DNA of 64,000 bases from Bradyrhizobium septentrionale (GTDB lineage: Bacteria; Pseudomonadota; Alphaproteobacteria; Rhizobiales; Xanthobacteraceae), in contig NZ_CP088285.1 of assembly GCF_011516645.4 (NCBI RefSeq), positions 4,110,501-4,174,500 of the forward strand, read 5' to 3'. The notes under the pieces were generated by a model. The model was given only the letters and a program-made list of their open reading frames with translations. It searched no databases and had not been told where the DNA came from. The first letter of the stretch is position 1, and each line of letters begins with the position of its first letter. This document shows positions 8,747 through 40,511 of the stretch, one piece after another. Position numbers and translations under genes: made by a program.

Positions 8747-9285
8747 ATCCTGTCGTTTCCTCGTTGAAGATTGACTTTGTTTGAAGATTGTTTTGCTGGC
8801 CGTTGCTGCGCAACAGCGTCGCGATACTGCGCGAATGCCCACGCATTGACAAGTCTGGTTCGGGCATGGCTCGTGCCCGACCATCCGGAAAAGTGAGCAA
8901 GCGCTCGGTAAACATTGCAACGCACGTGCTTCATCCCGTGCTGCGGGATAAGCTCTCGCGCGGTCGCGATCAGGCGTTAGACCTAAGTCGCTGTTCCCGA
9001 CCGATTTCACCAATCGGGTGATCAATGTCTCCGATCAGGATGGTTGCGCCGGCCGATCGCCGTCGTGAAGGCGCGTCTTGAACGGCGCGATTGTCGCACC
9101 CCTTATTGTCACGCCCTTGCAGTTTGTGCTGGACACCGGCGCGGCTTGCGGTAAGGGGTTGCTTCCGTGGTATACCACGGCCTGGCATTCTCCGTTGTCC
9201 GCCAAGTGCGGACCGGCGGCAGTCACCCGGACGGGTCTGGCTCGGGCGTTGAGAGACTTCCAGCATTGGCTTTGAAAGAGAGAGC
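8747..9285. other. 539-bp divergent intergenic region
   Basis: Lies between the divergent livK and ketopantoate-reductase-like genes. No credible coding frame is seen on either strand. The livK-proximal part is comparatively AT-rich (TTGACTTTGTTTGAAGATTG around 8770) and probably holds the liv promoter and leader. The right part holds the perfect 16-bp palindrome annotated separately at 9165-9180. Confidence 0.6.
9165..9180. promoter_or_regulatory. Perfect 16-bp palindrome, GntR-type operator candidate
   Basis: CCGTGGTATACCACGG is its own reverse complement and contains TGGTATACCA, the type of half-site pair (TGGT-N-ACCA) bound by FadR-subfamily GntR regulators. It lies 105 bp upstream of the ATG at 9286. 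No GntR gene is in this window, so the regulator, if any, is encoded elsewhere. Confidence 0.4.
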
Positions 9286-10350
9286 ATGGCGCGCAACATT
9301 CTGATTTTGGGAGCTTCCTACGGCTCCCTGCTGGGGACCAAGCTTCTGATGGCGGGTCACAATGTGACCTTGGTGTGCCGGAAGAACACGGCCGACCTGA
9401 TCAACCGCGACGGCACCGAGGTCCGCATCAAGCTGCGCGACGAAAAGGAGCACCGCTCTATCTTCTCGCGCGATTTGCCGGGCAAGCTCGACGCCGTGAC
9501 ACCCGCCGATGTCGACGTGTCGCGCTACGACATGGTTGGGCTGGCGATGCAGGAGCCGCAATACACCAACCACACGGTTCGCGTGCTGATGATCAAGATC
9601 GCGGCGGCGAAGCTGCCCTGCCTGTCGATCATGAACATGCCGCCGCTGCCGTATCTGAAGCGGATTCCCGCGCTCGCCGGTATGGACCTCGAGGAGGCCT
9701 ACACCAATGCGCAGGTGTGGGAGCGCTTCGAACCGGGACTGGTGACGCTGTGCTCGCCGGATCCGCAGGCCTTCCGTCCGCCGGAAGAGAAGGCCAACGT
9801 GCTGCATGTCGGCCTGCCGACCAACTTCAAGGCCTCCGCCTTCGCCGACGACAAGCACAACAAGGTGCTGCGCGAGCTCGAAGCCGATATCGACGCGGTG
9901 ACGCTCGACGGCCAGGACGTGCCGGTGAAGCTGAAGGTGTTTGACTCGCTGTTCGTGCCGCTGGCGAAATGGTCGATGCTGCTGACCGGCAATTATCGCT
10001 GCATCACGCCGAAGGAGCCGCAATCGATCCGCGACGCCGTGCACGGCGACCTGACGCGCTCGCAGGCGATCTACGACCATGTCGATTCGATCGCGCGCCA
10101 GCTCGGCGCCGATCCTGCCGACCAGGTGCCGTTCGCGAAATACGCCAAGGCGGCGGAAAGCCTGCTCAAGCCGTCCTCGGCGGCCCGTGCGGTCGCCGCC
10201 GGCGCGCCGTTCATCGAGCGCGTCGACCTCTTGGTGAAGCTGATCTCGCACCAGCTCGGCAAGCCCAGCGCCGAGATCGACCGCACGGTCGAGACCGTCG
10301 ATCAGAAGCTGAACGAGAAGATCGTGCAGGGCGGCTCCGGCGCGGAGTGA
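9286..10350 (+). CDS. Ketopantoate reductase-like NAD(P)-dependent enzyme
   Basis: 354-residue cytoplasmic protein. The N-terminus is a Rossmann fold like that of PanE/ApbA (ILILGASYGSLLGTKLLMAG, a GxxxGxxxG-type nucleotide loop, followed by a charged position near CRKN). The C-terminal half is helical, as in 6-phosphogluconate-dehydrogenase-like C-domains. The glycine loop is GASYGSLLG rather than the PanE GxGxxG, so a biosynthetic ketopantoate reductase role is not assured. A reasonable Shine-Dalgarno sequence (GAAAGAGAGAGC) precedes ATG 9286. It stands alone, with the palindrome at 9165-9180 in its promoter region. Confidence 0.75.
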   Translation: MARNILILGASYGSLLGTKLLMAGHNVTLVCRKNTADLINRDGTEVRIKLRDEKEHRSIFSRDLPGKLDAVTPADVDVSRYDMVGLAMQEPQYTNHTVRVLMIKIAAAKLPCLSIMNMPPLPYLKRIPALAGMDLEEAYTNAQVWERFEPGLVTLCSPDPQAFRPPEEKANVLHVGLPTNFKASAFADDKHNKVLRELEADIDAVTLDGQDVPVKLKVFDSLFVPLAKWSMLLTGNYRCITPKEPQSIRDAVHGDLTRSQAIYDHVDSIARQLGADPADQVPFAKYAKAAESLLKPSSAARAVAAGAPFIERVDLLVKLISHQLGKPSAEIDRTVETVDQKLNEKIVQGGSGAE

Positions 10351-10486
10351 CGCGCACCGTGGCGGGGGCGATGGCGCCCTCGCCATGCACCGGCGTTCAG
10401 CAAAACGTAAACCGCGGTTCCCAAACGCATGGCTCGGCCGATCCAGCTGAGGTAGGCTCGCGCAGTTGCGGTTGGGAGCCACGAAC

Positions 10487-10681
10487 ATGCCGATCAAATC
10501 GCTTCCTCTCCTTGCAATCTACGGCGACCTCGACCGCGCGCGCGACATCATGCGCGCCTGGCAGCCGCTCGACCAGCTTTCGCCTGACACGGCCGAGATC
10601 GTCGTGAAAGCGATCGCCGAAGGCATCGCACGCGGCCGTAGGCACGGCCTCGAGATGGGACAGTGCCATCTCGCGGCGTGA
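10487..10681 (+). CDS. Small conserved-looking protein of unknown function
   Basis: 64 residues from ATG 10487, preceded by TTGGGAGCC as a ribosome site; an in-frame TTG at 10466 would add seven residues. The product (MPIKSLPLLAIYGDLDRARD...) looks soluble and largely helical, with no cysteines except one near the end and no signal peptide. GC3 bias matches neighbouring genes, which is the main support for coding. Function not recognised. Confidence 0.5.
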   Translation: MPIKSLPLLAIYGDLDRARDIMRAWQPLDQLSPDTAEIVVKAIAEGIARGRRHGLEMGQCHLAA

Positions 10682-10738
10682 GTTGCGCGCGATGCTCAGT
10701 ATCCGACTCGATCTTGTGAGGTGAGCGCACTTCTCAGG

Positions 10739-10791
10739 CTCCCTCCCCCCTTGCGGGGACCTTGCGGGGGAGGGTGGGGAGAGGGGTGGCC
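10739..10791. repeat. CTCCCCC...GGGGGAG intergenic palindrome, copy a
   Basis: Short C-rich arm followed by GCGGGG and a G-rich arm (CTCCCTCCCCCC, TTGCGGGG twice, GGGGGAGGG), forming a strong hairpin. The same family occurs at 10877-10917, 14642-14688 and 45651-45708. The GCGGGGACCTTGCGGGG internal duplication is unique to this copy. Confidence 0.65.
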
Positions 10792-10876
10792 CCGGGCGCG
10801 ACGATTGACGTGGCCGTCGCTTTCGCAACGCCGGTCGCGTGCTGTTCAAGATTGAGCCGAGAGAGCGCGTCGTGTG

Positions 10877-10917
10877 GGACCCCTCTCCCTAACCCTCTCC
10901 CACAAGGGGAGAGGGAA
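10877..10917. repeat. CCCTCTCC...GGAGAGGG intergenic palindrome, copy b
   Basis: Contains CCCTCTCCC, ACAA and GGGGAGAGGG as hairpin arms. It lies about 90 bp from copy a in the gap before rnk, so the two could pair with themselves or with each other. Confidence 0.65.
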
Positions 10918-10965
10918 CCCTACCGCTGGTGGCTCCCTTACCGGAAATGCGGCGAGGCCGCGCCG

Positions 10966-11385
10966 CTAGCCCTGATGCTTCACGGCCAAAATCGTCACCG
11001 AACGCGTCTGGTGGCTCGGTGTCTGAAAATCGATGGTTTGTCCGACCGAGAGCCCGATCAGCGCGGCGCCGACCGGCGTCAGCACCGAGATGCGCCGGAG
11101 CGCGATGTCGGCTTCGTGCGGGTACACCAGCACGACCTCCCTGACGTCGCCGGTCTCGTCGTCGCGATAGCGCACAAGCGAGCCCATGCGGACCACGTCC
11201 GGCAGCTCGGCATCATCGGCGACGAGCTGCGCCCGGTCGGTCTCGCGCGCGAGGAACTCGGCCACGCTGGGAAACACCGCCATGCTGGAATCGGCCAGCA
11301 CGCTGAGGCGATGCGCCTCGCTCGCGGTGATCACGATCGGCGGCAATGCAGGGGCGGTAAAGCTAGTGTGAATGGTTCGGGTCAT
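10966..11385 (-). CDS. rnk: Rnk/GreA-like nucleoside diphosphate kinase regulator
   Basis: 139-residue protein combining a short helical N-terminal segment with a C-terminal GreA/GreB-type domain. The C-terminal motif region RRISVLTPVGAALIGLSVGQTIDF is the hallmark of the GreA C-terminal fold and of Rnk. Rnk-family proteins bind RNA polymerase near the secondary channel and were named for an effect on nucleoside diphosphate kinase. It is too short for GreA itself (about 158 residues with a full coiled coil). Transcribed alone, toward the palindromic repeats. Confidence 0.8.
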   Translation of the reverse strand: MTRTIHTSFTAPALPPIVITASEAHRLSVLADSSMAVFPSVAEFLARETDRAQLVADDAELPDVVRMGSLVRYRDDETGDVREVVLVYPHEADIALRRISVLTPVGAALIGLSVGQTIDFQTPSHQTRSVTILAVKHQG

Positions 11386-30498: not shown

Positions 30499-30651
30499 GG
30501 GAGATCGTCCTTCAATAGATGCGTGTTTGGAGCCGCACTCGAGAGCGCAGCAGGCTCATTCGAAGTTTTGGGGGGAGGGTCGTCAGTCAGGCGCGCTACC
30601 AGCGGCGAGGCCAAGTCGTTCGGCCGAAACTCGAATAACGGTACATGACTA

Positions 30652-30780
30652 CTATTCGATCATTCCGCAAGTGGCTTCCCCCTTCCTGACCTCAATCGCT
30701 ACGTCCCCCTTGCCTTTGGGGCAACAGCAGAAATCCACGTCTCCCTGCGGCAAGTCGTCTGCTTGACCGCAGCGGGAACA
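30652..30780 (-). other. Possible Cys-rich zinc-ribbon-like reading frame lacking a start
   Basis: The frame ending at TAG 30652 encodes CSRCGQADDLPQGDVDFCCC, then PKGKGDVAIEVRKGEATCGM and IE, with six cysteines in 42 residues. It begins just beyond the tetR stop but has no in-frame ATG, GTG or TTG between that gene's end and the first cysteine. It may be a short gene with an unusual start, a decayed remnant, or chance. Confidence 0.25.
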
Positions 30781-30797
30781 TCGCGCGGGCGCGTGCG

Positions 30798-31406
30798 CTA
30801 CTCCTTCTTCGCCGTCAGCCCGTCGACCATCGCGCGTGTCAGGGTGCCGATCTCGCTGCGCAGCGCGCCGATCGGCACTGCAATCAGCTTGTGCTCCAGC
30901 CCGAGCGCGACCATGCCGTGCACGGCGGAGAACAGGCTGCGCGCGGTGACGCCGAGCTGCGCCGGCGAGCGCTGCGGGAACAGTGCGGCGAGCGGCTTGT
31001 AGATGTGGCGGAACAATTCCATCTGCTCCGAGATGGCCCATTCCGGTACCGGCTTGCCCGGCTGCATGCGGTGCTCGAACAGCGCGCGCCACAGTTCGAG
31101 ATTGTCGGCGGCGAAGTCGCAATAGGCGACCGCGATGCGCACCAGCATCTCGCGCGGCGCCGCCGACCCGCCGATCTCGGCCAGAGACAGCGAGGCGTCG
31201 AGCCGGGCCAGCGTGCGCGAGCCGACGCGCAGGATCAACTCGTCGACATCCTCGACCAGATTGTAGACGCCGCCATTGGCAACACCGATTTCCTGGGCCA
31301 GTTCGCGCGTTTTCAGGCCGCCGAGACCCTTTGCCGCAATCGCCCGTTCCGCCGCCTCGATCAGCGCTTCCCGCAGTTTCGCACGTCGTTCCAATGCTTT
31401 GGACAT
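30798..31406 (-). CDS. TetR-family regulator of the PspA-like/YiaAB operon
   Basis: 202 residues. The helix-turn-helix covers about residues 12-60 (ALIEAAERAIAAKGLGGLKT, then AQEIGVANGGVYNLV), followed by a C-terminal ligand domain of the WHG type (EMLVRIAVAYCDFAADNLEL, then ALFEHRM). Divergent from the PspA-like gene at 31519. The 112-bp gap holds three copies of a TGAGC-N3-GCTCA dyad, so it is very probably an autoregulated repressor with cooperative binding. Confidence 0.9.
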   Translation of the reverse strand: MSKALERRAKLREALIEAAERAIAAKGLGGLKTRELAQEIGVANGGVYNLVEDVDELILRVGSRTLARLDASLSLAEIGGSAAPREMLVRIAVAYCDFAADNLELWRALFEHRMQPGKPVPEWAISEQMELFRHIYKPLAALFPQRSPAQLGVTARSLFSAVHGMVALGLEHKLIAVPIGALRSEIGTLTRAMVDGLTAKKE

Positions 31407-31431
31407 GTTTTACCCGCCGTTAACCATACGC

Positions 31432-31446
31432 TTGAGCGGCGCTCAA
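31432..31446. promoter_or_regulatory. Operator copy 1, TTGAGC-GGC-GCTCAA
   Basis: Perfect inverted repeat, 26 bp upstream of the tetR start. It shares TGAGC-N3-GCTCA with the two copies that follow. Confidence 0.72.
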
Positions 31447-31453
31447 ATAATTC

Positions 31454-31468
31454 TTGAGCATTGCTCAG
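31454..31468. promoter_or_regulatory. Operator copy 2, TTGAGC-ATT-GCTCAG
   Basis: Core TGAGC-N3-GCTCA is exact; the outermost bases do not pair. Its centre is 22 bp from that of copy 1, about two helical turns, so both could be occupied on one DNA face. Confidence 0.72.
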
Positions 31469-31487
31469 TATGTGGTACAAGAGATTC

Positions 31488-31502
31488 ATGAGCGATGCTC
31501 AT
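31488..31502. promoter_or_regulatory. Operator copy 3, ATGAGC-GAT-GCTCAT
   Basis: Perfect inverted repeat, ending 16 bp before the PspA-like start and directly upstream of its ribosome site, so binding would occlude transcription initiation or elongation. Its centre is 34 bp from that of copy 2, about three helical turns. Confidence 0.72.
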
Positions 31503-31518
31503 AACAGGGAGTGACCAA

Positions 31519-32214
31519 ATGTTCAAAACTGTTTTGACTCTTTTCCGCGGCACCGTTGCGGTCGCCGAAGAGGAACTGCAAGACCGGACCGCGCTGGTCA
31601 TCCTCGACCAGCAGATGCGCGATGCGGCCGCCGCCGTCGACCGCTCGAAGCGGACCTTGGCACTGGCAATCGCCGGCGACCAGCAGGAGGGCCGGCGGCT
31701 TGACGCCACCAACGCCCGGATCGCCGATCTCGAGGTCCGCGCGTCAGCGGCGCTCGAGGGCGGCCGGGAAGACCTCGCCCGCGAAGCCGCGCAGGCGATC
31801 GCCAACCTCGAAGCCGAACGCGATGCCGCGATGACCGCGCGCACCCTGTTCGCCACCGAGATCACACGGCTGAAGCGTCACGTCGGCAACGCCGAGGCGC
31901 GGATCGCCGAGCTCGATCGCGGCCGGCGCCTTGCCCGCGCCTCGGAGGCGGTGCGCTCGCTGCGCCGGAGCGGCATCGAGGCGGCGCGCCCCTACGAATC
32001 GACGCTGCCGGAAGCGGAGGCCACGCTGAAGCGGCTGCGCGAGCGGCAGATCGAGATCCAGGCGGCCGACGACGCGCTGTTCGAAATCGATACGGCCTCG
32101 GGACCGCTTGTCGTCGCCGAGAGGCTCGCCGAGCAGGGCTTCGGCCCGCGCATGAAATCGACTGCCGACGACGTGCTGGCGCGGCTGAAAGCCAAGCGCC
32201 CGCCGCAAGCCTGA
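31519..32214 (+). CDS. PspA/IM30-like coiled-coil protein
   Basis: 231 residues from ATG 31519, with CAGGGAGTGACC ahead. An amphipathic N-terminal helix (MFKTVLTLFRGTVAVAEEEL) leads into long heptad-rich helices (about 30-200) with the QQMRDAAAAVDRSKRTLAL region typical of PspA/IM30. These ESCRT-III-like proteins bind stressed inner membranes. The next gene encodes a two-helix YiaAB-type membrane protein, a known partner type. The divergent TetR gene and triple operator suggest a local envelope-stress switch instead of the PspF/sigma-54 system. Confidence 0.82.
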   Translation: MFKTVLTLFRGTVAVAEEELQDRTALVILDQQMRDAAAAVDRSKRTLALAIAGDQQEGRRLDATNARIADLEVRASAALEGGREDLAREAAQAIANLEAERDAAMTARTLFATEITRLKRHVGNAEARIAELDRGRRLARASEAVRSLRRSGIEAARPYESTLPEAEATLKRLRERQIEIQAADDALFEIDTASGPLVVAERLAEQGFGPRMKSTADDVLARLKAKRPPQA

Positions 32215-32266
32215 AACCGCAAGCCTGAAACAAGTCAACTTCAACCATATCATCAAGGAGACGACC

Positions 32267-32542
32267 ATGAACCAGACCATCCAACCCCACAGCGGCGCCT
32301 GGGTTACCTTCACCTACGCGTCCTTCGCAGCCTCCGCCTTTCTCGTCGCCATCGGCGTGTTCTTTCTGCCGATCAGCCTCTGGATGCAGGGCTATCTGAC
32401 GATGGGCATCGTGATGCTGGTCCAGACCTGCATCACGATGACCAAGACGGTGCGCGACAATTACGAGAGCGGCAAGTTCGTCAACCGCATCGAGGACGCC
32501 AAGGCCGAGCGCCTGCTGATGGAAGTCTCCAAGGCAGGGTGA
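32267..32542 (+). CDS. YiaAB-type two-helix inner-membrane protein
   Basis: 91 residues with two hydrophobic helices (ASFAASAFLVAIGVFFLP and LWMQGYLTMGIVMLVQTCIT) joined by a short turn, then a charged tail (TVRDNYESGKFVNRIEDAKA). This is the YiaA/YiaB domain pattern. ATG 32267 has AAGGAGACGACC ahead. It lies 52 bp downstream of the PspA-like gene in one operon; it could serve as the membrane anchor or sensor for the PspA-like protein. Confidence 0.85.
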   Translation: MNQTIQPHSGAWVTFTYASFAASAFLVAIGVFFLPISLWMQGYLTMGIVMLVQTCITMTKTVRDNYESGKFVNRIEDAKAERLLMEVSKAG

Positions 32543-32557
32543 GTCGGAGCCAATGCG

Positions 32558-32586
32558 AAGCGGCGGGTGTTTCGCACCCGCCGCTT
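32558..32586 (+). terminator. Hairpin after the PspA-like/YiaAB operon
   Basis: Perfect 12-bp arms AAGCGGCGGGTG and CACCCGCCGCTT around TTTCG, beginning 15 bp after the stop. It ends in TTTCG instead of a long U run, but the stem is very stable. It separates this operon from the five-gene operon starting at 32718. Confidence 0.7.
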
Positions 32587-32717
32587 TCGTCGTTGGGGGC
32601 AACTTGTTCCGTTTCCGGAACGGCTTGTTTACCCTGCGGCCAACAGCGGCAGGTTGCGCTCATGGCTCTTTAACAGGCCTGAGTGCAGAGATCGCGCCCG
32701 AGGGACAGAGAAGAGAA

Positions 32718-33773
32718 ATGGCGCCCACGGATGATCCGACCCCGGCCTCGCGCGGCGGCAGGGGTTTTGCGAAGGCGCGCGCGGCCTTTGACGGCCTGCG
32801 CGGCCATGCCGGCTTTTGGCTGAAGGCGCTGTCGCAGCCGACCATCGATCTCACCTTGCGCACCCAGGCCGGCCAGCGCACCCGTATCGTCGAATCGCCC
32901 GGCGTGTCGCTGCCGAAGGCCGAGCTCGACGCGCTGGTCGCGCAGCTCCGCATCGTTGCCGCCAAGACGCTGCCCGAGGAAAGCCTGACCTACGGCATCT
33001 TTTCCGGCGAGCCGGAGCGGCTGTCGCGCGCCGTCGTCACCCTGATCTCCGAGGAAGACACCGGGCGGCCGATCGCCTTCAACGCGCTGTCGGTGATGGA
33101 CGTGCCGCTCGACGGCGAGCCCGCTGAAGTGACCCATCTCGGCCTCGTCATGGTCGATCCCGATGTGCGCGGGCAGGGGCTGTCCTGGGTGCTTTACGGC
33201 CTGACCGCGCTGGTGCTGTTCGCCCGCGACGGGCTGCGGCCGAAATGGATTTCCAACGTCACCCAGGTGCCGGCGGTGGTCGGCATGGTCAGCGACACGT
33301 TCTCGGACGTGTTCCCGTCGCCGCAGCCCGGCGCGCGGCAGAGCTTTGCGCATCTGCAGCTGGCGCGCGGCATCATGGCACGGCATCGCGCGGTGTTCGG
33401 CGTCGGCGAGGAGGCCGGCTTCGATGAGGCGCGCTCGGTCATCACCAATGCCTATACCGGCGGCTCGGACGCGCTGAAGAAGACCTTCGAGATCGCGCCG
33501 AAACATCGCGACGCCGTCTACAACGAATTCTGCGAACGCGAGCTGGACTACGGCCGCGGCGACGATGTGCTGCAGCTCGGCCGCGTCGATCTTGCCGGTG
33601 CGCGCCGTTACCTGATGAGCGAGGTGCCGTCGGGCTCGCTGCCGGCGCTGCTCGCGGCGTCGGCGATGCTGGCGCTGCAGCGCCTGGTGCTGCCGGTGAT
33701 CTACTGGCTGGACGACAGCCGCGCCTTCGGCACGCTGCGGCCGCGCAGACACGAGAGCGGGGGGGCGCGATGA
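32718..33773 (+). CDS. GNAT-like protein, gene 1 of the ThiF/nitroreductase operon
   Basis: 351 residues from ATG 32718 (AGAGAAGAGAA ahead); the open frame upstream to 32553 reads the terminator region and is not coding. The central part fits a GNAT N-acetyltransferase fold, with the acetyl-CoA pyrophosphate-loop-like VDPDVRGQGLSWVLYGLTAL at about residues 155-175. N-terminal and C-terminal regions are unassigned; the C-terminal end has a moderately hydrophobic stretch (LPALLAASAMLALQRLVLPV). It overlaps the ThiF gene by 4 bp. Substrate unknown; the size exceeds a single GNAT domain (about 150). Confidence 0.7.
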   Translation: MAPTDDPTPASRGGRGFAKARAAFDGLRGHAGFWLKALSQPTIDLTLRTQAGQRTRIVESPGVSLPKAELDALVAQLRIVAAKTLPEESLTYGIFSGEPERLSRAVVTLISEEDTGRPIAFNALSVMDVPLDGEPAEVTHLGLVMVDPDVRGQGLSWVLYGLTALVLFARDGLRPKWISNVTQVPAVVGMVSDTFSDVFPSPQPGARQSFAHLQLARGIMARHRAVFGVGEEAGFDEARSVITNAYTGGSDALKKTFEIAPKHRDAVYNEFCERELDYGRGDDVLQLGRVDLAGARRYLMSEVPSGSLPALLAASAMLALQRLVLPVIYWLDDSRAFGTLRPRRHESGGAR

Positions 33774-34645
33774 ATTTCGACTATTACTCCTTCACCGGCC
33801 GCAACATCGGCTTCATCGACGAGCACGAACAGCAGCTGCTGCGCCAGGCGCGGGTGTTCGTCTGCGGCGTCGGCGGCATGGGTGGCGCGGCCTTCATGGC
33901 GCTGGCGCGCGCCGGCGTCGGCAAGTTCGTGATCGCCGACATCGACCGCTTCGAGGTCTCCAACCTCAACCGCCAGGTGTTCGCCTTTGCCGACGAGGTC
34001 GGCCGCGAGAAGGCGGCGGTCGCCGCCGAGGCAGCCAAGCGCATCAACCCGACCATCGAGATCGAGGTGCTCGGCGAGAACTGGACCGATGAGCTCGCCG
34101 GGATCGCCGCGCGTTGCCCTGTCATCGTCAACGGCATGGACGACATCGCGGCCGGTGTGCATTTGTACCGGACTGCGAAAGCCGCGGATGCAACTGTGAT
34201 CGACGCCTATATGTCGCCGCTGCCGTCGGTGATTGTGGTGCGCCCGTACGATCCAAGGCCCGAGGAGCGCCTCGGCTTTCCGACGATGGGCAAGGACTGG
34301 ACTGCTATCACCGAGGACGACCGCCGCGCCGCGATGCGTGCCGAGATCGAGCACGTGATGCTGCACTCCTCGTCGCGCAACTATGTCGATCTCGCGATTG
34401 CCGGCGAAGTCGCGGCCGGCCGCCGCAGCCGGATGTCGTTCGCGCCGATGGTGATCTCGACGGGGATGCTGATGGCCTATGAGGCGGTCGCGCTGATCCT
34501 GGGCCGCACCTCCGGCACCGATTGCCGCGGCTGGTTCCTCAATCCGCACCGGCCCGCGATCGAGCGGCCGCGCAATGCGCTGGTTGCCGCCCTGATGCGC
34601 CCGCTGGTGCGCCGGGCGATCGAGCAATTGACGGGCAGCACATGA
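33770..34645 (+). CDS. ThiF/MoeB/E1-like adenylyltransferase
   Basis: 291 residues. Rossmann nucleotide loop GVGGMGG (33-39), acidic IADIDR (Asp57/Asp59), SNLNRQ (64-69), Lys81 and Asp124/Asp125 match the ATP/Mg catalytic set of MoeB, ThiF and ubiquitin E1. Such enzymes adenylate a C-terminal carboxylate. The paired CxxC zinc motifs of MoeB/ThiF are missing; only Cys32, Cys116 and Cys252 are present, so a thioester Cys, if used, would most likely be Cys252. No ubiquitin-like partner or E2 is encoded nearby. 4-bp overlaps on both sides place it inside a coupled operon. Confidence 0.88.
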   Translation: MNFDYYSFTGRNIGFIDEHEQQLLRQARVFVCGVGGMGGAAFMALARAGVGKFVIADIDRFEVSNLNRQVFAFADEVGREKAAVAAEAAKRINPTIEIEVLGENWTDELAGIAARCPVIVNGMDDIAAGVHLYRTAKAADATVIDAYMSPLPSVIVVRPYDPRPEERLGFPTMGKDWTAITEDDRRAAMRAEIEHVMLHSSSRNYVDLAIAGEVAAGRRSRMSFAPMVISTGMLMAYEAVALILGRTSGTDCRGWFLNPHRPAIERPRNALVAALMRPLVRRAIEQLTGST

Positions 34646-35841
34646 CCTCGGGGGCGATTGCCGATTCCATCGTCAATCTCTGCGGCGCCATCGGCCTTGC
34701 GGTGGCGATGCTGACGTTCTACCGGCGCGATCCAAGGAGCCCGCTGACCCGTCGCCTGCTGCTTGCGCTCGGCGTGATCGCGATCCTGTTCCTCGACCGC
34801 GGCCTTGCGTGGTGGACCGGAAGCCGCCTGCTCGACCGCCTCTCGGTGATCCCGGCCGCACTGATCCCGCTCGGCGCCCTGATCGTCACCGAAGGCATCT
34901 TGCGGCGCCACGCGCCGCGCGCGGTCAAGATCGCAGCGCTCGCGGGCGGCATCCTGCTCGGCCTCGGCGGCCTGTTCGGGCTGCAACGCTTCGTGATGCC
35001 TTACGCGATCACGCTGGCGCTGTTTCAGCTGCTTGCTTTCGCCACCTGCGCGCTGCTGCTGGCGACGCGCGACCGCTCCTCGCTGATGGCCTCGGAAAAC
35101 CGCAGCATCGGCCGCATGGCGGTCGGCGCGCTGGTCGTGATCCCGTTCATCCTGACCGACTTCCGCACGTTATTCCCGGACATTCCGGTCCGGCTCGGCG
35201 CGCTGGGTGCACTGCTGACCGTGACCGTGATGCTGATCGCCGGCGGCGGCGCCGAGACCCGCCGCCACGGACTGGCGATGATGGCACTGCGGCTGATCTC
35301 TTCGGGCCTGCTGGGGCTCGCCGCCGCCTTCATGGCGCCCGACGTCGACGCCGCGCAGGTCGTCCGGTTCGTCGCGGTCGCGATCGCCGGCGTGCTGACG
35401 ATCGGGTTGATGACGGATGCGCTGCGCGCGCTGTTCGAATCCCAGGAGCCCGGCGTGCTCAATTCGGTGGCGGCGTCGCCGGCGCAGACAAGGGAGCAGT
35501 TGATCGCCGAACTCGCGCGGCATCCGATCTTCGAAAGCGCGCAGCGGTTTCGCGAGAGCGAGCTGGCGTCGTACGATCCGCCGCTGCTCCGCGACTTCCT
35601 GTCGGCGCGGCGTGTGCTGCGCCGGTCCGATGCGCCGTGGGCGCTGTCGCCGATTGACCCTGCGGCCGAGCGCATGGTCTCGCTGATGACGGCCAACAGC
35701 GCCTCCCATGTCATCGTGCTCGCGCATGATCCGCTCGATCTGATCGTGCTCGCCGTGCCCGTGACCGCGGCCGATCCCGCCACCGAAACCGCGCTGGCGC
35801 TGGTGCGGCGGCTGTTGGCGTTGACCCCGGAGGCCAAATGA
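34642..35841 (+). CDS. Polytopic membrane protein of unknown function
   Basis: 399 residues from ATG 34642. The first 270 or so residues form about eight to nine hydrophobic helices (for example AGGILLGLGGLFGL and LISSGLLGLAAAFMAP). The C-terminal 130 residues are soluble and may be a cytoplasmic domain (FESAQRFRESELASYDPPLL onward). No family recognised; it is not a known transporter fold by visible motifs. Overlaps the ThiF gene and the next gene by 4 bp each (ATGA junctions), so equimolar production with them is likely. It may recruit the soluble enzymes to the membrane or export their product. Confidence 0.75.
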   Translation: MTSGAIADSIVNLCGAIGLAVAMLTFYRRDPRSPLTRRLLLALGVIAILFLDRGLAWWTGSRLLDRLSVIPAALIPLGALIVTEGILRRHAPRAVKIAALAGGILLGLGGLFGLQRFVMPYAITLALFQLLAFATCALLLATRDRSSLMASENRSIGRMAVGALVVIPFILTDFRTLFPDIPVRLGALGALLTVTVMLIAGGGAETRRHGLAMMALRLISSGLLGLAAAFMAPDVDAAQVVRFVAVAIAGVLTIGLMTDALRALFESQEPGVLNSVAASPAQTREQLIAELARHPIFESAQRFRESELASYDPPLLRDFLSARRVLRRSDAPWALSPIDPAAERMVSLMTANSASHVIVLAHDPLDLIVLAVPVTAADPATETALALVRRLLALTPEAK

Positions 35842-36959
35842 CGCTCGAGATCAGGGAGGGTGACCGCAAAGCGGCATTCGACGCGGCGCTCAATGCCTAT
35901 GGGCCCGACAGTCTCTATGTGCCGCCGCTGTGGAGCGATTTCGAGCGGATGTTCGATTCCGCGAAGAATCCGTTCATCACCGAGGGCCACGGCCGCTACG
36001 CGCTGTTCTCCGCGCATCGCGACGGACGACCGGTCGGCCGCATCGCCGCCTCGATCCACGACGCCTCCAACCGCAAGCACGGCACCCGCCACGGCGCATT
36101 CGGCTTCTTCGATTGCATCGACGAGCCCGAGGTGGCCGACGGGCTGCTGGGCGCCGCCGAGCAATGGCTGTCCGCGCGCGGCATGAGCCGCGTCGCCGGC
36201 AATTTCAATCTCACGGCGATGCAGCAGATCGGCGTGATGACCGACGGGTTCGACCATGCGCCATTCACCGACATGATGTGGTCGCCGCCGCATATCGCGC
36301 GCCACCTCGAACGCGCCGGCTATACCGCGACCTTCCCGATGACGACGTTCGAGATCGCGCTCGACGGCGGCAAGCCGGAGCAATTGCTCGGCGACAAGCA
36401 GCGCGCGGTGTTGGCCGACAAGGACTTCGTCTGGCAGCCGATCAAGCGTTCCGCCTTCAAGGTGCGGCTGGAGGATGCGCGGCTGATCCTCAATGACGGT
36501 TTTGCCGACAACCCGATGTTCGTGCCGCCGACCGCGGCCGAATATCTGTTCCAGGCCGGCGACATGATGTGGATCATCGACAAGCGGATTTCGACCGTGG
36601 TCTATCACCGCGGCCGGCCAGCCGGGGCGATCATCGCGATCCCCGACCTCAATCCGTTGATCAAGGCGATCGGCGGCCGGATCGGGCTATCAGCGCCGTT
36701 CAGGTTCGTGCAGCACCGCATCATGAACACGCGCGCCGTGCTGATCTATCAGTCGGTCTGCCGGGACCTGCACAATCGCGGCCTCAACGGCGCGATGCTC
36801 TATCGCACGGCGCTGGCGTTGCAGGAGGCCGGCTACCGCACGCTCGGCGGCACCTGGATCGCCGATATCAACGGTCCGTCGTTGCGCCAGGTCGAGAAGG
36901 TCGGCGCCCAGCCGCTGCACCGGCTGCATCTGTTCTCCAAGCGGCTGGCGGCGGCATGA
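35838..36959 (+). CDS. GNAT-superfamily-like protein, gene 4 of the operon
   Basis: 373 residues. Two halves can be seen: an N-terminal segment with YVPPLWSDFERMFD and a GNAT-like middle (GRIAASIHDASNRKH, FGFFDCIDEPEVADGLLGAA), and a C-terminal segment with a second acyltransferase-like pattern (GLNGAMLYRTALALQEAGYR and TWIADINGPSLRQVEKVGA). The pattern resembles E. coli YghO-type proteins of unknown function. ATGA overlaps connect it to its neighbours. Probably transfers an acyl or aminoacyl group in the operon pathway; substrate unknown. Confidence 0.7.
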   Translation: MTLEIREGDRKAAFDAALNAYGPDSLYVPPLWSDFERMFDSAKNPFITEGHGRYALFSAHRDGRPVGRIAASIHDASNRKHGTRHGAFGFFDCIDEPEVADGLLGAAEQWLSARGMSRVAGNFNLTAMQQIGVMTDGFDHAPFTDMMWSPPHIARHLERAGYTATFPMTTFEIALDGGKPEQLLGDKQRAVLADKDFVWQPIKRSAFKVRLEDARLILNDGFADNPMFVPPTAAEYLFQAGDMMWIIDKRISTVVYHRGRPAGAIIAIPDLNPLIKAIGGRIGLSAPFRFVQHRIMNTRAVLIYQSVCRDLHNRGLNGAMLYRTALALQEAGYRTLGGTWIADINGPSLRQVEKVGAQPLHRLHLFSKRLAAA

Positions 36960-37951
36960 GCGAGTTGACGCCGGATCTGTTGCGCGAGCTGGTCGCAGAG
37001 GCGCGGCTGGCGCCGAGCGTCCACAACATCCAGCCGACGCGCTGGCGGCTGCTTGCCGACGGGCGGCTGGCGCTGGTCGACGACGTCAGCGTACGCGCGC
37101 CGGTCGCCGACCCCGCGGGGCACGACGTGCTGGTCTCGCACGGCGCGGCGCTGGAGGGCATGAGCCTCGCGCTCAACCGCCGCGGCCTTGCCATCACCGG
37201 TATGACGACGATCGAGCAGCCGCTGTCGCCGCAATTTACCGCGCTCTGCAGCTTTGCGGTCCGGCAGGGCGTTGCGCCCGATCCGCTGGCCGGCCATGTG
37301 GCGCGCCGCATGTCGTGGCCCGGCAAGTTCGCGGCGTCGCCTGATGATGCGGCGGCGCTGGCACAGCTTGCCGCCGCGCGCGACGACGTGATTTGCATTG
37401 GGGATCGCCAGGCGATTGCTGAAATCGCTGATTGGGCCGATCAGGCCGAGTTCTCCTTTGTCCGGGACGACGATTACCGGCAGGAACTGCTCGCATGGAT
37501 GCGGCTGTCGCCGAGCCATCCGCATTATCTGCAGGACGGTCTCAACCGCGACGCGCTCGCCATGAATGCGGTCGAGGCCAGCGCGGCCCGCTTCGTGCTC
37601 GGCGGCCTGTTCAGGCCGCTTGATCGTCTCGGCATCGCCGCATCGCTGCTCGCCGACAGCGCCAAGACGGCGTCGGCCTCGGCGATTGTGCTGTTCTGCC
37701 GTCCGGTCGGTGAGGATCCACTCACGACGGGACGGCATTTCTACCGGATCTGGCTGGAGATCGATCGCGCCGGGTTCGCGGCGTGCCCGATCTCGGCGCT
37801 ATCAGACCATCCTGACTTCAACGATCGGCTGCGAAAACTCGGCAAGGTTGGCGGCGATCTGCGCCTCGTCAATGTGTTCCGCGTCGGCCGGCCGCCGAAA
37901 CCGCTGAAACCCCGGCATTTCCGCCTGCCGGTCGACCGTCTCATCGTCTAG
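36956..37951 (+). CDS. Nitroreductase-like (Acg/Rv1355c C-terminal type) protein
   Basis: 331 residues from ATG 36956, sharing ATGA with the previous stop. FMN-binding start LAPSVHNIQPTRWRLL (the APSxHNxQPWRF motif of nitroreductases, with Thr-Arg in place of Trp-Arg), and later SPSHPHYLQDGLNRDAL. The C-terminal part VNVFRVGRPPKP contains the usual RVGxP end. The fold binds FMN and typically reduces nitro compounds or quinones, but Acg-type members are divergent. In Mycobacterium tuberculosis Rv1355c a ThiF domain is fused to such a nitroreductase domain, which supports functional coupling with gene 2 of this operon. Last gene of the operon. Confidence 0.78.
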   Translation: MSELTPDLLRELVAEARLAPSVHNIQPTRWRLLADGRLALVDDVSVRAPVADPAGHDVLVSHGAALEGMSLALNRRGLAITGMTTIEQPLSPQFTALCSFAVRQGVAPDPLAGHVARRMSWPGKFAASPDDAAALAQLAAARDDVICIGDRQAIAEIADWADQAEFSFVRDDDYRQELLAWMRLSPSHPHYLQDGLNRDALAMNAVEASAARFVLGGLFRPLDRLGIAASLLADSAKTASASAIVLFCRPVGEDPLTTGRHFYRIWLEIDRAGFAACPISALSDHPDFNDRLRKLGKVGGDLRLVNVFRVGRPPKPLKPRHFRLPVDRLIV

Positions 37952-38041
37952 CATTGCCGAAAATTAGCTGCGATACCCGCTGTCAAAGCTTCATCGGGTC
38001 GTGCTATGACGCCGCCCGCTAACCAATGACCGGTGGGTATG

Positions 38042-38248
38042 ATGTCGAAGCAATCGCTGCGCGAGGAGGCCGAGCGCCTGATCCGCGAGACCATGGAAAA
38101 GCGGAACCTCGTCATCAAGCAGGGTACGACCCGGATCGAGGCCGTTTGCGGCAAATGCGGCGCGCCGAACCGGGTGCAGGCGGAAAAGGGCCAGTCCCGC
38201 GTCAAGTTCGCCTGCAAGGAGTGCGGCCACAAGCAGGAGACGCTGTAA
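38042..38248 (+). CDS. Small zinc-ribbon protein
   Basis: 68 residues from ATG 38042 (ATG 38039 and GTG 38033 are in frame). Helical, charged N-terminus (REEAERLIRETMEKRNL), then CGKCGAPN and, 20 residues later, CKECGHKQ: two CxxC knuckles forming a zinc ribbon. Probably a nucleic-acid- or protein-binding adaptor. Not overlapping the preceding operon (90-bp gap). The product looks well conserved in character, but I cannot name the family. Confidence 0.75.
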   Translation: MSKQSLREEAERLIRETMEKRNLVIKQGTTRIEAVCGKCGAPNRVQAEKGQSRVKFACKECGHKQETL

Positions 38249-38285
38249 GCGCGCGAGAGATCCCGTAGGGTGGGTCTGCTTGTAC

Positions 38286-38415
38286 CGTCATCCCCGCGCA
38301 AAGGCTTCGCCTTTGTCGCTGGAGGTGCGAGCGGAGCGAGCCTCGAAGGATGAATCGGCCAGAGAAGGGGCCGTGCATCCTTCGAGACGCGCTACGCGCT
38401 CCTCAGGATGACGGG
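38286..38415. repeat. CGTCATCC...GGATGACG element, copy 1
   Basis: Begins CGTCATCCCCGCGCAAAGGC, contains the internal inverted pieces GGCTTCGCCTTTGTCGCTGG, GCCTCGAAGGAT and GCATCCTTCGAGACGCGC, and ends CTCAGGATGACGGG. Long dispersed hairpin element found again at 50651-50752, 53887-54017 and 62208-62341; each copy keeps the CGTCATCC/GGATGACG ends. Confidence 0.75.
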
Positions 38416-38455
38416 ACAAATAGAATGATCGGATGGTTAGCTAACCCACCCGAAG

Positions 38456-39030
38456 TTACTTGAACACTTCGCACACCGTGGTGTGATCCGGCGCGATCCT
38501 GGCCGCGGTCCGCAGCGACACGGTGCGCCACCAGGCGTCGAGCGCGTGGCGGTCGCAGGCGAGCTTCACGCTCATCCCGCCGGCGAACTTGACCCAGTCG
38601 GCAAAGCTCTGATGTGACTCCGCGATCACGACGGGAATATCGGCATCGAGCGCACGCTCGATCAAATAGCCAAGGCCCTTGCCGTCGCGTTCGCGCTTGC
38701 CGAAGCGATTGATGATGACGAGATCGGCGCCGGCCGCGAGCGCGTCGGCGACCCGGACGCCGGCGTCCTGCAGCCGCGACAGATCGAGCTTGCAACCGCT
38801 CGCACCCGGGCTCGTGGTACTTGGGCTTGGCGGCTGCGCCAGCAGCAGCGTCTCGCCGCTATGCACCAGCACGGCCGACAGGCTCGAATCCGCGCATTGG
38901 CCTGATTGCACCATGCCGACCACGCGCGCGCCCTGCGCCTTCAGATGACAGGCGAAGTCGCGCAGGATGGCTTGGGATCGTCGTGCTCGTCATAGACCAG
39001 GGCAGCAAGATCGCATTGGGCGTCGAACAT
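38456..39030 (-). pseudogene. DUF2478-family protein, frameshifted
   Basis: The expected start MFDAQCDLAALVYDEHDDP is at ATG 39030, but at about 38968-38975 the frame breaks and would stop at 38941; the adjoining frame continues with AILRDFACHLKAQGARVVGM, then VQSGQCADSSLSAVLVHSGE to TAG/TAA region 38456 (about 190 residues in total). The distance between the two frames requires one missing base. Later features are the conserved DLVIINRFGKRERDGKGLGY segment and a C-terminal VCEVFK. DUF2478 proteins resemble P-loop nucleotide-binding proteins of unknown role. Real mutation or assembly error cannot be told apart. Confidence 0.68.
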
Positions 39031-39101
39031 GATGGGCTCTGTTCGTTGTAGACGGGGGAGGCGACCGCGGCGCCAGGGCGTCGCGGCCGCGTGTTGTCGG
39101 A

Positions 39102-40511
39102 TCAGGCGGCCGGCGGGCCGTTGATGATCTGCAGCTGGGTGAATTCGGCGAGGCCTTCCTCGGCGAATTCGGTGCCGATGCCGGACTGCTTGGCGCCGCC
39201 GAACGGAATGTTCGGGGCCATGTCGAGGTGCTTGTTGATCCACACCGTGCCGGCCTCGATCTGGGTCGCGATCTCATGCGCGCGCTTGATGTTCGACGAC
39301 CACACCGACGCGCCGAGGCCGTAAGTGGTGGCGTTGGCGCGGCGGATCACGTCATCCTTGTCGGAATATTTGATCACCGGCAGCACCGGACCGAACTGCT
39401 CCTCGTCGACCAGCTTGGAGCCTTCCTTGATGTCGCGCACGATGGTCGGCTCGATGAAATAGCCGGGACGGTCCATCGCGGCGCCGCCGGCGATCACGTT
39501 GCCGTTCTTGCGGGCATCGTCGAGGAACGCCTTCACCTTCTCGTATTGCATCTTGTTCTGCAGCGGACCCAGCTTGGTGCCCTGCTTGGAGCCGTCATCG
39601 ACCACGGTGTTCTTGGCGATCGCGACCAGCTCGTTGCAGATTTCGTCATAGACCGACTCGTGGACATAGAGACGCTTGATGGCGAGGCAAACCTGGCCGG
39701 AGTTCTGGAACGCGCCCTCGAAGATGCCGGGCGCGACCTTCTTCGGATCGACGTCGTCGAGCACGATGCCGGCATCGTTGCCGCCGAGCTCGAGCGTGAT
39801 CCGCTTCAGCGTCTGCGATGCGCTCGCCATCACCTTCTGGCCGGTCGCGGTCGAGCCGGTGAAGGAGATCTTGCGGATGTCAGGGTGCTTGGTCATGTGA
39901 TCGCCGAGATCATTGGCGTCGGCGATGAAGTTGAGCACGCCCTTCGGCAGGATGTCCTTGACCAGCTCGGCAAAGCGCAGCGAGGCCAGCGGCGTGGTCG
40001 GCGCAGGCTTCACCACCAGCGTGTTGCCGGCCAGCAGCGCCGACGGCAGCTTGAACGCGAGGATCAGCAGCGGATAGTTCCAGGGAATGATCGCGCCGAC
40101 CACGCCGAGCGGGCGGCGATAGGCCTCGACCTTGCGGTCGCCGGAATTCTCGACCACGCGCATCGGCAGATCGAGCGAGCCGAGATAGCGGAAGAAGCCG
40201 GCCATGCCCATCACTTCGCCGGTGGCGTCCGCGAGCGGCTTGCCCTGCTCGCTGGTCAGGATGTGGGCGAGCTCGTTGGTATTGGCCTCGATCGCCTCGG
40301 CCATCTTGATGATCAGCTTGCGGCGCTCCTCCATCGGGGTCGCGGCCCATGCCGGGTAGGCGGCCTTCGCGGCGGCGACAGCCTTGTCGAGCTGGTCCTT
40401 GGAGGCGCGCGGGCACAGCGCCACCACCTCTTCGGTCGCCGGATTGAGCACCGGCATGGTCTGGTCGCCGGGTACCATCTTGCCGTCGATGAGAAGCTTG
40501 TAATCACTCAT
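39102..40511 (-). CDS. Aldehyde dehydrogenase family protein
   Basis: 469 residues. NAD(P)-dependent oxidation of an aldehyde to its acid; ALDH fold with catalytic Cys275 (NSGQVCLAIKR), general base Glu241 (LELGGNDAG) and Asn145 (IIPWN). The coenzyme loop FTGSTATG is at about 218-225. Length and the class signature suggest a non-phosphorylating medium-chain aldehyde dehydrogenase; substrate not predictable. The gene is alone, with a 338-bp upstream region to the divergent 40850 gene. Confidence 0.92.
   Translation of the reverse strand: MSDYKLLIDGKMVPGDQTMPVLNPATEEVVALCPRASKDQLDKAVAAAKAAYPAWAATPMEERRKLIIKMAEAIEANTNELAHILTSEQGKPLADATGEVMGMAGFFRYLGSLDLPMRVVENSGDRKVEAYRRPLGVVGAIIPWNYPLLILAFKLPSALLAGNTLVVKPAPTTPLASLRFAELVKDILPKGVLNFIADANDLGDHMTKHPDIRKISFTGSTATGQKVMASASQTLKRITLELGGNDAGIVLDDVDPKKVAPGIFEGAFQNSGQVCLAIKRLYVHESVYDEICNELVAIAKNTVVDDGSKQGTKLGPLQNKMQYEKVKAFLDDARKNGNVIAGGAAMDRPGYFIEPTIVRDIKEGSKLVDEEQFGPVLPVIKYSDKDDVIRRANATTYGLGASVWSSNIKRAHEIATQIEAGTVWINKHLDMAPNIPFGGAKQSGIGTEFAEEGLAEFTQLQIINGPPAA

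Follow-up and report, generated by a model that had tools for sequence, protein, structure and literature searches.

A conserved five-gene operon of Bradyrhizobium septentrionale that may encode a membrane-linked acyl-lipid pathway of oxazolone type

The window, the whole 64,000-nucleotide stretch of Bradyrhizobium septentrionale DNA analyzed here, carries an operon of five overlapping genes that is conserved in other bacteria and that, by analogy with known pathways, may well encode a membrane-linked acyl-lipid pathway of oxazolone type. The set is divisible: in some genomes its two modules, AT1-MEM and ThiF-AT2-FDO, occur without or away from each other. The operon and its conserved upstream neighbors are as follows.

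30798..31406, minus strand: gene for a TetR-type regulator, divergent from PspA; conserved neighbor (41 of 85 loci)
31495..32214, plus strand: PspA/IM30 gene; conserved neighbor (43 of 85 loci)
32267..32542, plus strand: gene for a YiaA/YiaB two-helix protein; conserved neighbor (44 of 85 loci)
32718..33773, plus strand: AT1, 351 aa, single-domain GNAT acyltransferase with a C-terminal helix (family alignments, predicted fold)
33770..34645, plus strand: ThiF, 291 aa, ThiF/E1-superfamily adenylating enzyme, proposed cyclase
34642..35841, plus strand: MEM, integral membrane protein with about nine hydrophobic segments and a soluble C-terminal domain of about 140 aa
35838..36959, plus strand: AT2, 373 aa, tandem-GNAT acyltransferase (predicted fold)
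36956..37951, plus strand: FDO, 331 aa, nitroreductase-superfamily flavin-dependent oxidase, Acg/Rv1355c-like

Conservation of the set and its division into two modules

A sequence-only reading of this DNA had described five genes coupled by 4-bp ATGA overlaps, and all four junctions are indeed of this kind; the overlaps are kept in most relatives of the set. We compared 85 loci picked by their match to ThiF, the window among them, and found all five genes in identical order and on the same strand in 82. ThiF and the nitroreductase, on whose co-occurrence and neighborhood elsewhere the earlier reading had staked its case, occurred together in 84, the remaining locus being truncated by a contig end. 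MEM was likewise present in 84, the exception being a Yoonia locus (L198) whose MEM sits elsewhere in the genome. A Mesorhizobium locus kept AT1, ThiF, MEM and FDO, with AT2 at another place in the genome. Hosts of the complete set were mostly Alphaproteobacteria but also included Cupriavidus, one Halomonas metagenome-assembled genome (MAG) and one Thermoanaerobaculia MAG. Among 14 more distant ThiF relatives, counted besides two five-gene loci, one was a ThiF-nitroreductase fusion and 13 had no such partner. We found no published description of the five-gene set in the literature, judged by titles and the openings of abstracts. The network of 2,416 ThiF sequences mentioned in the available sections of PMC12856293 may already include these ThiF proteins.

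The division into modules was apparent from a set of 51 loci, in which ThiF, AT2 and FDO were all present in 20 and all absent in 28, with only remnants of the locus in the other 3; apart from those 3, no partial ThiF/AT2/FDO set was seen. The 28 loci, all in Bradyrhizobium, carry AT1-MEM alone. Two of the two-gene loci, L040 and L044, were placed apart from each other inside the five-gene clade, and L040 still bears scars, namely, the start of ThiF and the 3' end of FDO. AT2 was absent genome-wide from all 12 MEM-bearing genomes searched, 11 of them belonging to the 28 two-gene loci; the AT2 model used did find AT2 in both genomes of a separate search. Yoonia presents another arrangement, with ThiF-AT2-FDO at one place (ThiF and AT2 separated by 40 nt) and an overlapping AT1-MEM pair at another. 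The claim that the five genes form one system withstood the refuting conditions set by the earlier reading, separation in other genomes or want of co-occurrence, but was incomplete in treating the set as a single block. Path lengths do not favor a ThiF-AT2-FDO block, because ThiF tracked MEM (r = 0.90) and AT1 (0.76) better than AT2 (0.63) and FDO (0.56). Tree distances across the two modules correlated at r = 0.60 to 0.90, a range to which shared host descent contributes.

Besides the neighbors listed above, counted with a 45% coverage filter on queries, an Aas-like MFS-PlsC-acyl-ligase protein lay near the set in 20 of the 85 loci. The PspA/YiaAB and Aas-like neighbors give the set a lipid and membrane context. 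At some loci a RoxA-like cytochrome is found instead. What looked like a remnant of Aas in the Bradyrhizobium interval from YiaAB to AT1 proved to be a frame-shifted YiaAB overlap caused by an overextended query, and the biggest flanking family (33 loci) resembled shadow open reading frames (ORFs) and was disregarded.

Properties of the five proteins

ThiF matched the Pfam ThiF family at 2.5e-36, and its 29 relatives all had the ATP-site motifs GxGGxG and NGxDD, the first D of the latter aligning with the D of TDN in MoeB and ThiF. The MoeB/ThiF sulfur-carrier activators carry two CxxC zinc pairs. No CxxC was present in any of the 29 members, in agreement with the earlier description of a ThiF protein lacking these pairs but retaining the ATP-site residues. 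There was also no conserved catalytic cysteine, as no position held a cysteine in more than 18 of the 29 members. Cyclization therefore fits better than sulfur or thioester transfer, and a MoeB/ThiF-type sulfur-carrier function is not favored. No sulfur-carrier partner was found among the five conserved genes, the comparison of flanking ORFs covering those of at least 80 aa. The models of the uncharacterized PRK08223 (115.5 bits), MoeB (91.5) and ThiF (89.3) all scored above that of Rv1355c (42.3), so placement as an oxazolone cyclase is not given by sequence alone. The halves of the fusion-type model PRK14851 were matched by ThiF (87.8 bits) and FDO (17.5 bits) of the window.

FDO bears the motif APSVHNIQP. 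Each of the 29 FDO members hit the Acg family model as well as that of Rv1355c (TrzS), the window's FDO scoring 150 bits with Acg versus 43 with Rv1355c, and its profile matched the solved structure of Acg (2YMV) at 1.8e-18. Acg-type (FDO-B) enzymes are thought not to make oxazolones (PMC10404671). The NCBIfam scores do not favor grouping ThiF with TyzB, OxzB and TrzS, or FDO with the FDO-A enzymes. FDO does share an operon with ThiF, MEM and AT2 lying between the two. A search of plasmids with a ThiF-nitroreductase fusion found no characterized oxazolone enzyme, and when AT2 and FDO from locus L160 served as protein queries, further relatives came up, none recognizable by name as a characterized enzyme. 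The Rv1355c model gave no match at 1e-30 in 299 genomes of the phylum, a result that does not prove absence, since the controls were silent too.

Predicted structures gave GNAT folds for both acyltransferases, a single domain for AT1 and a tandem for AT2. Models of the N-acyl amino acid synthase type matched none of 30 AT2 or 29 AT1 members, and neither FeeM, BjaI nor any other N-acyl amino acid synthase figured among the 50 fold matches listed for AT2 and AT1, an absence that does not exclude a relationship. In the organism's own genome there were two matches to TIGR03694, a model of exosortase-type acyltransferases, at 24 to 25 bits against a cutoff of 112; of 14 control genomes, 1 gave a match, and none exceeded the cutoff. 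AT2 shared 12 to 16% identity with the tandem GNATs MAB_4324, MshD (mycothiol synthase) and a clavulanic acid pathway protein, and the predicted fold that it shares with such enzymes says nothing about its function.

MEM has a basic loop with E84, RRHA (88 to 91) and K96. No curated family matched it above the cutoff; a single member of 31 matched Acyl_transf_3, weakly (E = 0.0015). Profile searches of solved structures yielded nothing credible for either MEM or AT1. No MEM-like protein is named in the sections consulted of the papers on related ThiF and flavin-oxidase pathways.

Likeness to oxazolone and dehydroamino acid pathways

Pathways combining an acyltransferase, a ThiF cyclase and a flavin oxidase are known to make N-acyl oxazolones, as shown for TyzACB (tyrazolone) of M. 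tuberculosis (PMC10404671) and, in the available sections of PMC12856293, for TrzAS (tryptazolone). The latter identify Rv1355c as TrzS, the fusion of a ThiF cyclase and a flavin oxidase that produces N-acyl tryptazolones and for which cyclization comes first. OxzAB is the oxazolone pathway of Pseudoalteromonas rubra, as relayed in the consulted portions of two J Biol Chem papers. The Rv1355c fusion, to which the sequence-only reading had pointed, was therefore a good lead. Its statement that no function was known for the set needs amending, since that of the ThiF-nitroreductase pair in such sets had already been published.

Like these pathways, the operon has a ThiF with ATP-site motifs, and both a flavin oxidase and an acyltransferase gene lie in the cluster. 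As in TyzACB, the acyltransferase, ThiF-type cyclase and nitroreductase-superfamily oxidase are encoded by separate genes; here, however, they form a single five-gene operon in which AT2 is a predicted tandem GNAT (TyzA, by contrast, has been likened to FeeM and AHL synthases), and which contains a second GNAT and places MEM between ThiF and AT2. TyzACB also lies near the transporter gene mmpL9, whereas the neighbors here are PspA/YiaAB or a RoxA-like cytochrome. The likeness to TrzAS and OxzAB would lie in the chemistry of ThiF cyclase, flavin oxidase and acyltransferase, together with the Rv1355c model matches of FDO; TrzS and OxzB, however, are fusions of the two enzymes that are separate proteins here, AT2 is a tandem GNAT, and the sections consulted report no MEM in those systems. 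The stieleriacine, thalassotalic acid and kyonggic acid clusters likewise have N-acyl amino acid synthase, ThiF and nitroreductase genes in operon-like order in the available sections of PMC12479983, which name methyltransferases in Stieleria but no MEM or tandem GNAT. The cluster figure of that paper is restricted to genes presumed to participate.

Proposed pathway and alternatives

We propose that AT2 would take a fatty acyl chain from acyl-CoA or acyl-ACP and attach it to the amino nitrogen of an amino acid or a comparable amine, that ThiF would then adenylate the carboxylate with ATP, ring closure through the amide oxygen giving an oxazolone, and that FDO, dependent on FMN and O2, would desaturate the alpha-beta bond. 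The chemistry of these steps is carried over by analogy from OxzAB, TyzACB and TrzAS; what the operon itself displays is its gene content and order, the overlaps, conservation and co-loss of its genes, the domain identities and the predicted folds of AT1 and AT2. AT1-MEM would be a separable second module, probably at the inner membrane, acting on the same product by a second acylation, transfer to lipid or export. Supporting this proposal are the conservation of the set in 82 of 85 loci, the joint loss of ThiF, AT2 and FDO, the Acg and Rv1355c matches of every FDO member, the published trios, the absence of CxxC and the lipid context. Against it stand the higher scores of ThiF and FDO with models other than Rv1355c, the lack of N-acyl amino acid synthase matches for AT1 and AT2, the difference of AT2 from TyzA, the ThiF path lengths, the Mesorhizobium locus without AT2 and the absence of a MEM-like protein from the pathway texts consulted. 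The suggestion that the genes modify a peptide or small molecule gained support in its small-molecule form, from the same 82 loci and the 84 with both ThiF and nitroreductase.

The end product could instead be an open-chain N-acyl dehydroamino acid such as the stieleriacines and the thalassotalic and kyonggic acids, the oxazolone being transient at most; ThiF would merely activate the carboxylate, readying it for desaturation or for passage to a lipid-carried amine via AT1-MEM. This seems possible though somewhat doubtful. Clusters of NasY, ThiF and nitroreductase genes occur in makers of N-acyl dehydrotyrosines for which the available sections of PMC12479983 report no oxazolone, and AT1-MEM would supply a next step, but the oxazolone ring is hydrolyzed by acid and opened by alcohols (PMC12856293, available sections), so its absence is weak evidence, and TrzS cyclizes first. 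We consider it unlikely that the substrate is a membrane lipid or lipid-linked amine already in place, such as an aminolipid head group that is acylated and oxidized, with MEM binding the lipid, AT1 and AT2 acylating it and no free N-acyl amino acid formed. The near-constant presence of MEM, the persistence of AT1-MEM alone in 28 loci and the linkage to PspA, YiaAB and the Aas-like lysophospholipid acyltransferase/acyl-ACP ligase would suit such a role, but ThiF-AT2-FDO lies apart from AT1-MEM in Yoonia, and MEM belongs to no recognized lipid-enzyme family beyond the weak match of one of the 31 members.

The separation of the modules in Bradyrhizobium and Yoonia could also mean that AT1-MEM serves independently in membrane stress beside PspA-YiaAB, with an unrelated ThiF-AT2-FDO pathway interleaved by chance. 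This is improbable: the interleaved order recurs in 82 loci across orders, a single Yoonia genome holds both modules, though unlinked, and tree distances correlate across the modules, with the contribution of host descent already noted. Least probable is an E1-like protein or peptide conjugation or RiPP pathway using ThiF in the manner of MccB or PaaA. ThiF does match MccB and, by profile, E1 enzymes and PaaA, and it matches PADLOC E1-E2 models (best 1.7e-13) via the shared ThiF domain, but AT1, MEM, AT2 and FDO matched no PADLOC family at E = 0.01, and the operon has no E2, JAB or ubiquitin-like partner, so we rejected an E1-E2 defense or conjugation system. The conserved catalytic cysteine is missing, the mostly overlapping genes leave no space between them for a precursor (flanks compared at 80 aa or more), and a scan of 30500 to 40500 for ATG-started ORFs of 40 to 130 aa ending in GG, the Gly-rich tail that the earlier reading had advised seeking, found no candidate for a RiPP or ubiquitin-like tail.

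If the oxazolone-type proposal holds, the recently discovered lipid chemistry of ThiF and flavin oxidases would reach a conserved operon found in marine, soil and root-associated bacteria, whose acyltransferase fold differs and whose other genes are accompanied by an uncharacterized membrane protein. A more speculative version, which we regard as rather unlikely, is a two-module lipid factory under PspA-linked envelope-stress control, widespread but sporadic in Alphaproteobacteria, in which ThiF-AT2-FDO would make an electrophilic acyl-oxazolone and AT1 and MEM would open its ring onto a lipid amine at the inner membrane, giving a previously unseen acylated dehydroamino acid membrane lipid; the Bradyrhizobium strains with AT1-MEM only would then make a simpler lipid form. 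The role of such lipids is described as a major unresolved question in the Discussion of PMC12856293. The split versions, AT1-MEM alone in Bradyrhizobium and the separated modules of Yoonia, are natural experiments on that role, and the recurrent PspA/YiaAB linkage offers a testable tie to envelope stress.

Conservation of the five-gene set

We scanned the genome collection with a ThiF alignment, which gave 112 confirmed loci, and a plasmid search returned 11 records with a ThiF match, which covered 80% or more of ThiF in 10 of them. The best 80 of the 112 loci, four plasmid loci and the window made up a sample of 85 loci. The order AT1-ThiF-MEM-AT2-FDO and its strand were identical in 82 of these 85, a sample in which ThiF is present by selection and for which the profiles were rebuilt from the same loci in two rounds. 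Among the 82, the ThiF frame was called from an over-early start in three, and one gene was split into two frames in four (AT1 in L127, FDO in L133 and L201, and AT2 in L167). The exceptions were L199, which is a contig end, L198 from Yoonia, which lacked AT1 and MEM, and L202 from Mesorhizobium, which lacked AT2. The Yoonia genome has an overlapping AT1-MEM pair elsewhere, and the Mesorhizobium genome has AT2 elsewhere, adjoining a gene similar to those for RoxA-like cytochromes.

The five-gene system noted in the sequence-only reading is real and conserved. Its distribution is sporadic. Of 35 other genomes of the genus, 4 had a ThiF match with an E value of 1e-20 or lower, and a close full-length ThiF was found in 2 of 397 other genomes of the phylum, both with all five genes. 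AT1 was found in none of 239 other genomes of the class searched, and the set was not found around 14 more distant ThiF relatives that we read. We found no description of the system in the literature searched.

Two modules in Bradyrhizobium

MEM was present in 45 of 391 genomes of the family, the source genome included (42 full length and 3 remnants). Of 40 MEM loci read, 9 had ThiF (one a contig end), 28 had AT1-MEM only, and 3 were MEM remnants. In three Bradyrhizobium genomes (L071, L072 and L073), only short C-terminal MEM remnants were left at the same locus. We then compared 51 loci, comprising 39 of these 40, four further Bradyrhizobium loci, the window and seven outgroups; L045 and L201 come from a single genome. 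Twenty were complete, 28 had AT1-MEM only, three had none of the genes beyond remnants, and there were no partial sets.

Because the AT1+MEM tree places the five-gene locus L076 between the two-gene loci L040 and L044 (intervening supports, 82 to 99), ThiF, AT2 and FDO were likely lost twice independently. At L040, scars remain of ThiF (its start, with about eleven codons) and of FDO (about 21 terminal codons); the shuffle control covered the ThiF start, scored jointly with the AT1 end, but not the FDO end. No such ThiF or FDO remnant codons were found at L044. With several deep supports in the tree low (37 to 86), the deeper history may consist of repeated losses or of a single loss followed by a regain.

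AT2 was found in none of 12 whole MEM-bearing genomes searched, 11 of them among the 28 two-gene loci. ThiF profile matches occurred in all 12, at 42 to 109 bits over part of the profile length; the cluster ThiF proteins score far above this, at 321 to 644 bits, in a single-sequence search as opposed to a profile search. In one two-gene Bradyrhizobium genome there is a further ThiF-type open frame (699 aa, 108 bits; G407:C112:5308-5751), comparable in length to ThiF-oxidase fusions.

Given no partial sets in the 51 loci, no AT2 in the 12 genomes and weak ThiF matches, ThiF, AT2 and FDO behave in Bradyrhizobium like a single block, and of the two acyltransferases AT2 is the likelier cognate one. 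Two observations count against a strict block, however. In trees of 36 de-replicated loci, ThiF path lengths correlated best with those of MEM (0.90) and less well with those of AT2 (0.63) and FDO (0.56), and in Mesorhizobium AT2 alone was relocated. All ten pairwise correlations were substantial (0.56 to 0.90), with none of 500 permutations as high, and they also contain the host phylogeny.

Likeness to oxazolone and dehydroamino acid pathways

TcdA, which belongs to the ThiF superfamily and closes a ring from a carboxylate on tRNA, was among the profile matches of ThiF and is a precedent for cyclisation in this superfamily. The ThiF family has neither CxxC nor any fully conserved cysteine, a pattern that fits ring closure via an adenylate. 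In published pathways, TyzA acts as the N-acyltransferase on Tyr/Phe, with TyzC as the desaturase and TyzB as the cyclase (PMC10404671), tryptazolones are made by TrzA and the fused TrzS (Rv1355c) (PMC12856293), and N-acyl dehydrotyrosine producers carry similar trios (PMC12479983). In the present set these three enzyme kinds co-segregate.

Several points do not fit. Among NCBIfam models, PRK08223, MoeB and ThiF outscore Rv1355c for ThiF, and Acg outscores it for FDO. TyzA has a reported FeeM/AHL-synthase-like fold, whereas the AT2 fold differs. Oxazolone and nitroreductase are absent from the main text of a ThiF review (PMC12250964). The system is best read as a variant, with a membrane module added, of oxazolone/N-acyl dehydroamino acid pathways; we do not claim membership, which would depend on acyltransferase homology and on the phylogeny of ThiF and FDO.

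An alphaproteobacterial ThiF-nitroreductase fusion of 683 aa (L108, 6279-8330, minus strand) is flanked by genes at 5313-6116 and 8445-11264 for two proteins that were named by eye: one whose C terminus resembles a PEP-CTERM sorting signal, and a large TPR-like one. This arrangement suggests a possible role of ThiF-oxidase fusions at exosortase/EPS loci as well.

Neighbouring genes

Clean queries against the fetched flanks of the 85 loci found PspA at 43, YiaAB at 44, TetR at 41, an Aas-like gene at 20, a RoxA-like cytochrome at 33 and none of these at 7. The PspA count is not independent, since Bradyrhizobium supplies 19 of the 43; PspA also occurs near the set in Bosea, Methylobacterium, Ensifer, Shinella, Mesorhizobium and Ruegeria. 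At least three arrangements were seen: same-strand and upstream, downstream and convergent with Aas between, and downstream and directly convergent (Ruegeria). One Ruegeria locus had a partial Aas match, below the filter. Pfam assigned MFS, acyltransferase and AMP-binding domains to one Aas-like protein. Two features are listed here:

L122, 1132 aa: Aas-like protein in which an MFS transporter, a PlsC-type acyltransferase and an AMP-binding ligase are fused
Window 38042-38248, plus strand, downstream of the set: gene for a zinc-ribbon-like protein of 68 aa

In Bosea and Methylobacterium (L162, L175 and L176), the Aas-like gene lies upstream, with YiaAB on one side and AT1 on the other; in Ensifer, Shinella and Mesorhizobium (L122, L123 and L202), it lies downstream and is convergent to FDO. 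PspA and the RoxA-like cytochrome occur together in no locus of the 85. The cytochrome, identified as RoxA-like by Pfam on two proteins, may be a further pathway component.

In 33 of the 85 loci (e.g., L124, L128 and L149), all without PspA, the gene for this c-type cytochrome is convergent to FDO, usually directly downstream; it is also present at L106 and L107. A cytochrome relative adjoins the displaced Mesorhizobium AT2 (L213, 7743-9476). In ten two-gene loci (L047, L048, L049, L050, L051, L052, L054, L055, L058 and L060), YiaAB is followed by a second YiaAB-like match before AT1. Nineteen of the 21 Bradyrhizobium loci, and none of the other 64, have the zinc-ribbon-like gene after the set, and many two-gene loci also have it.
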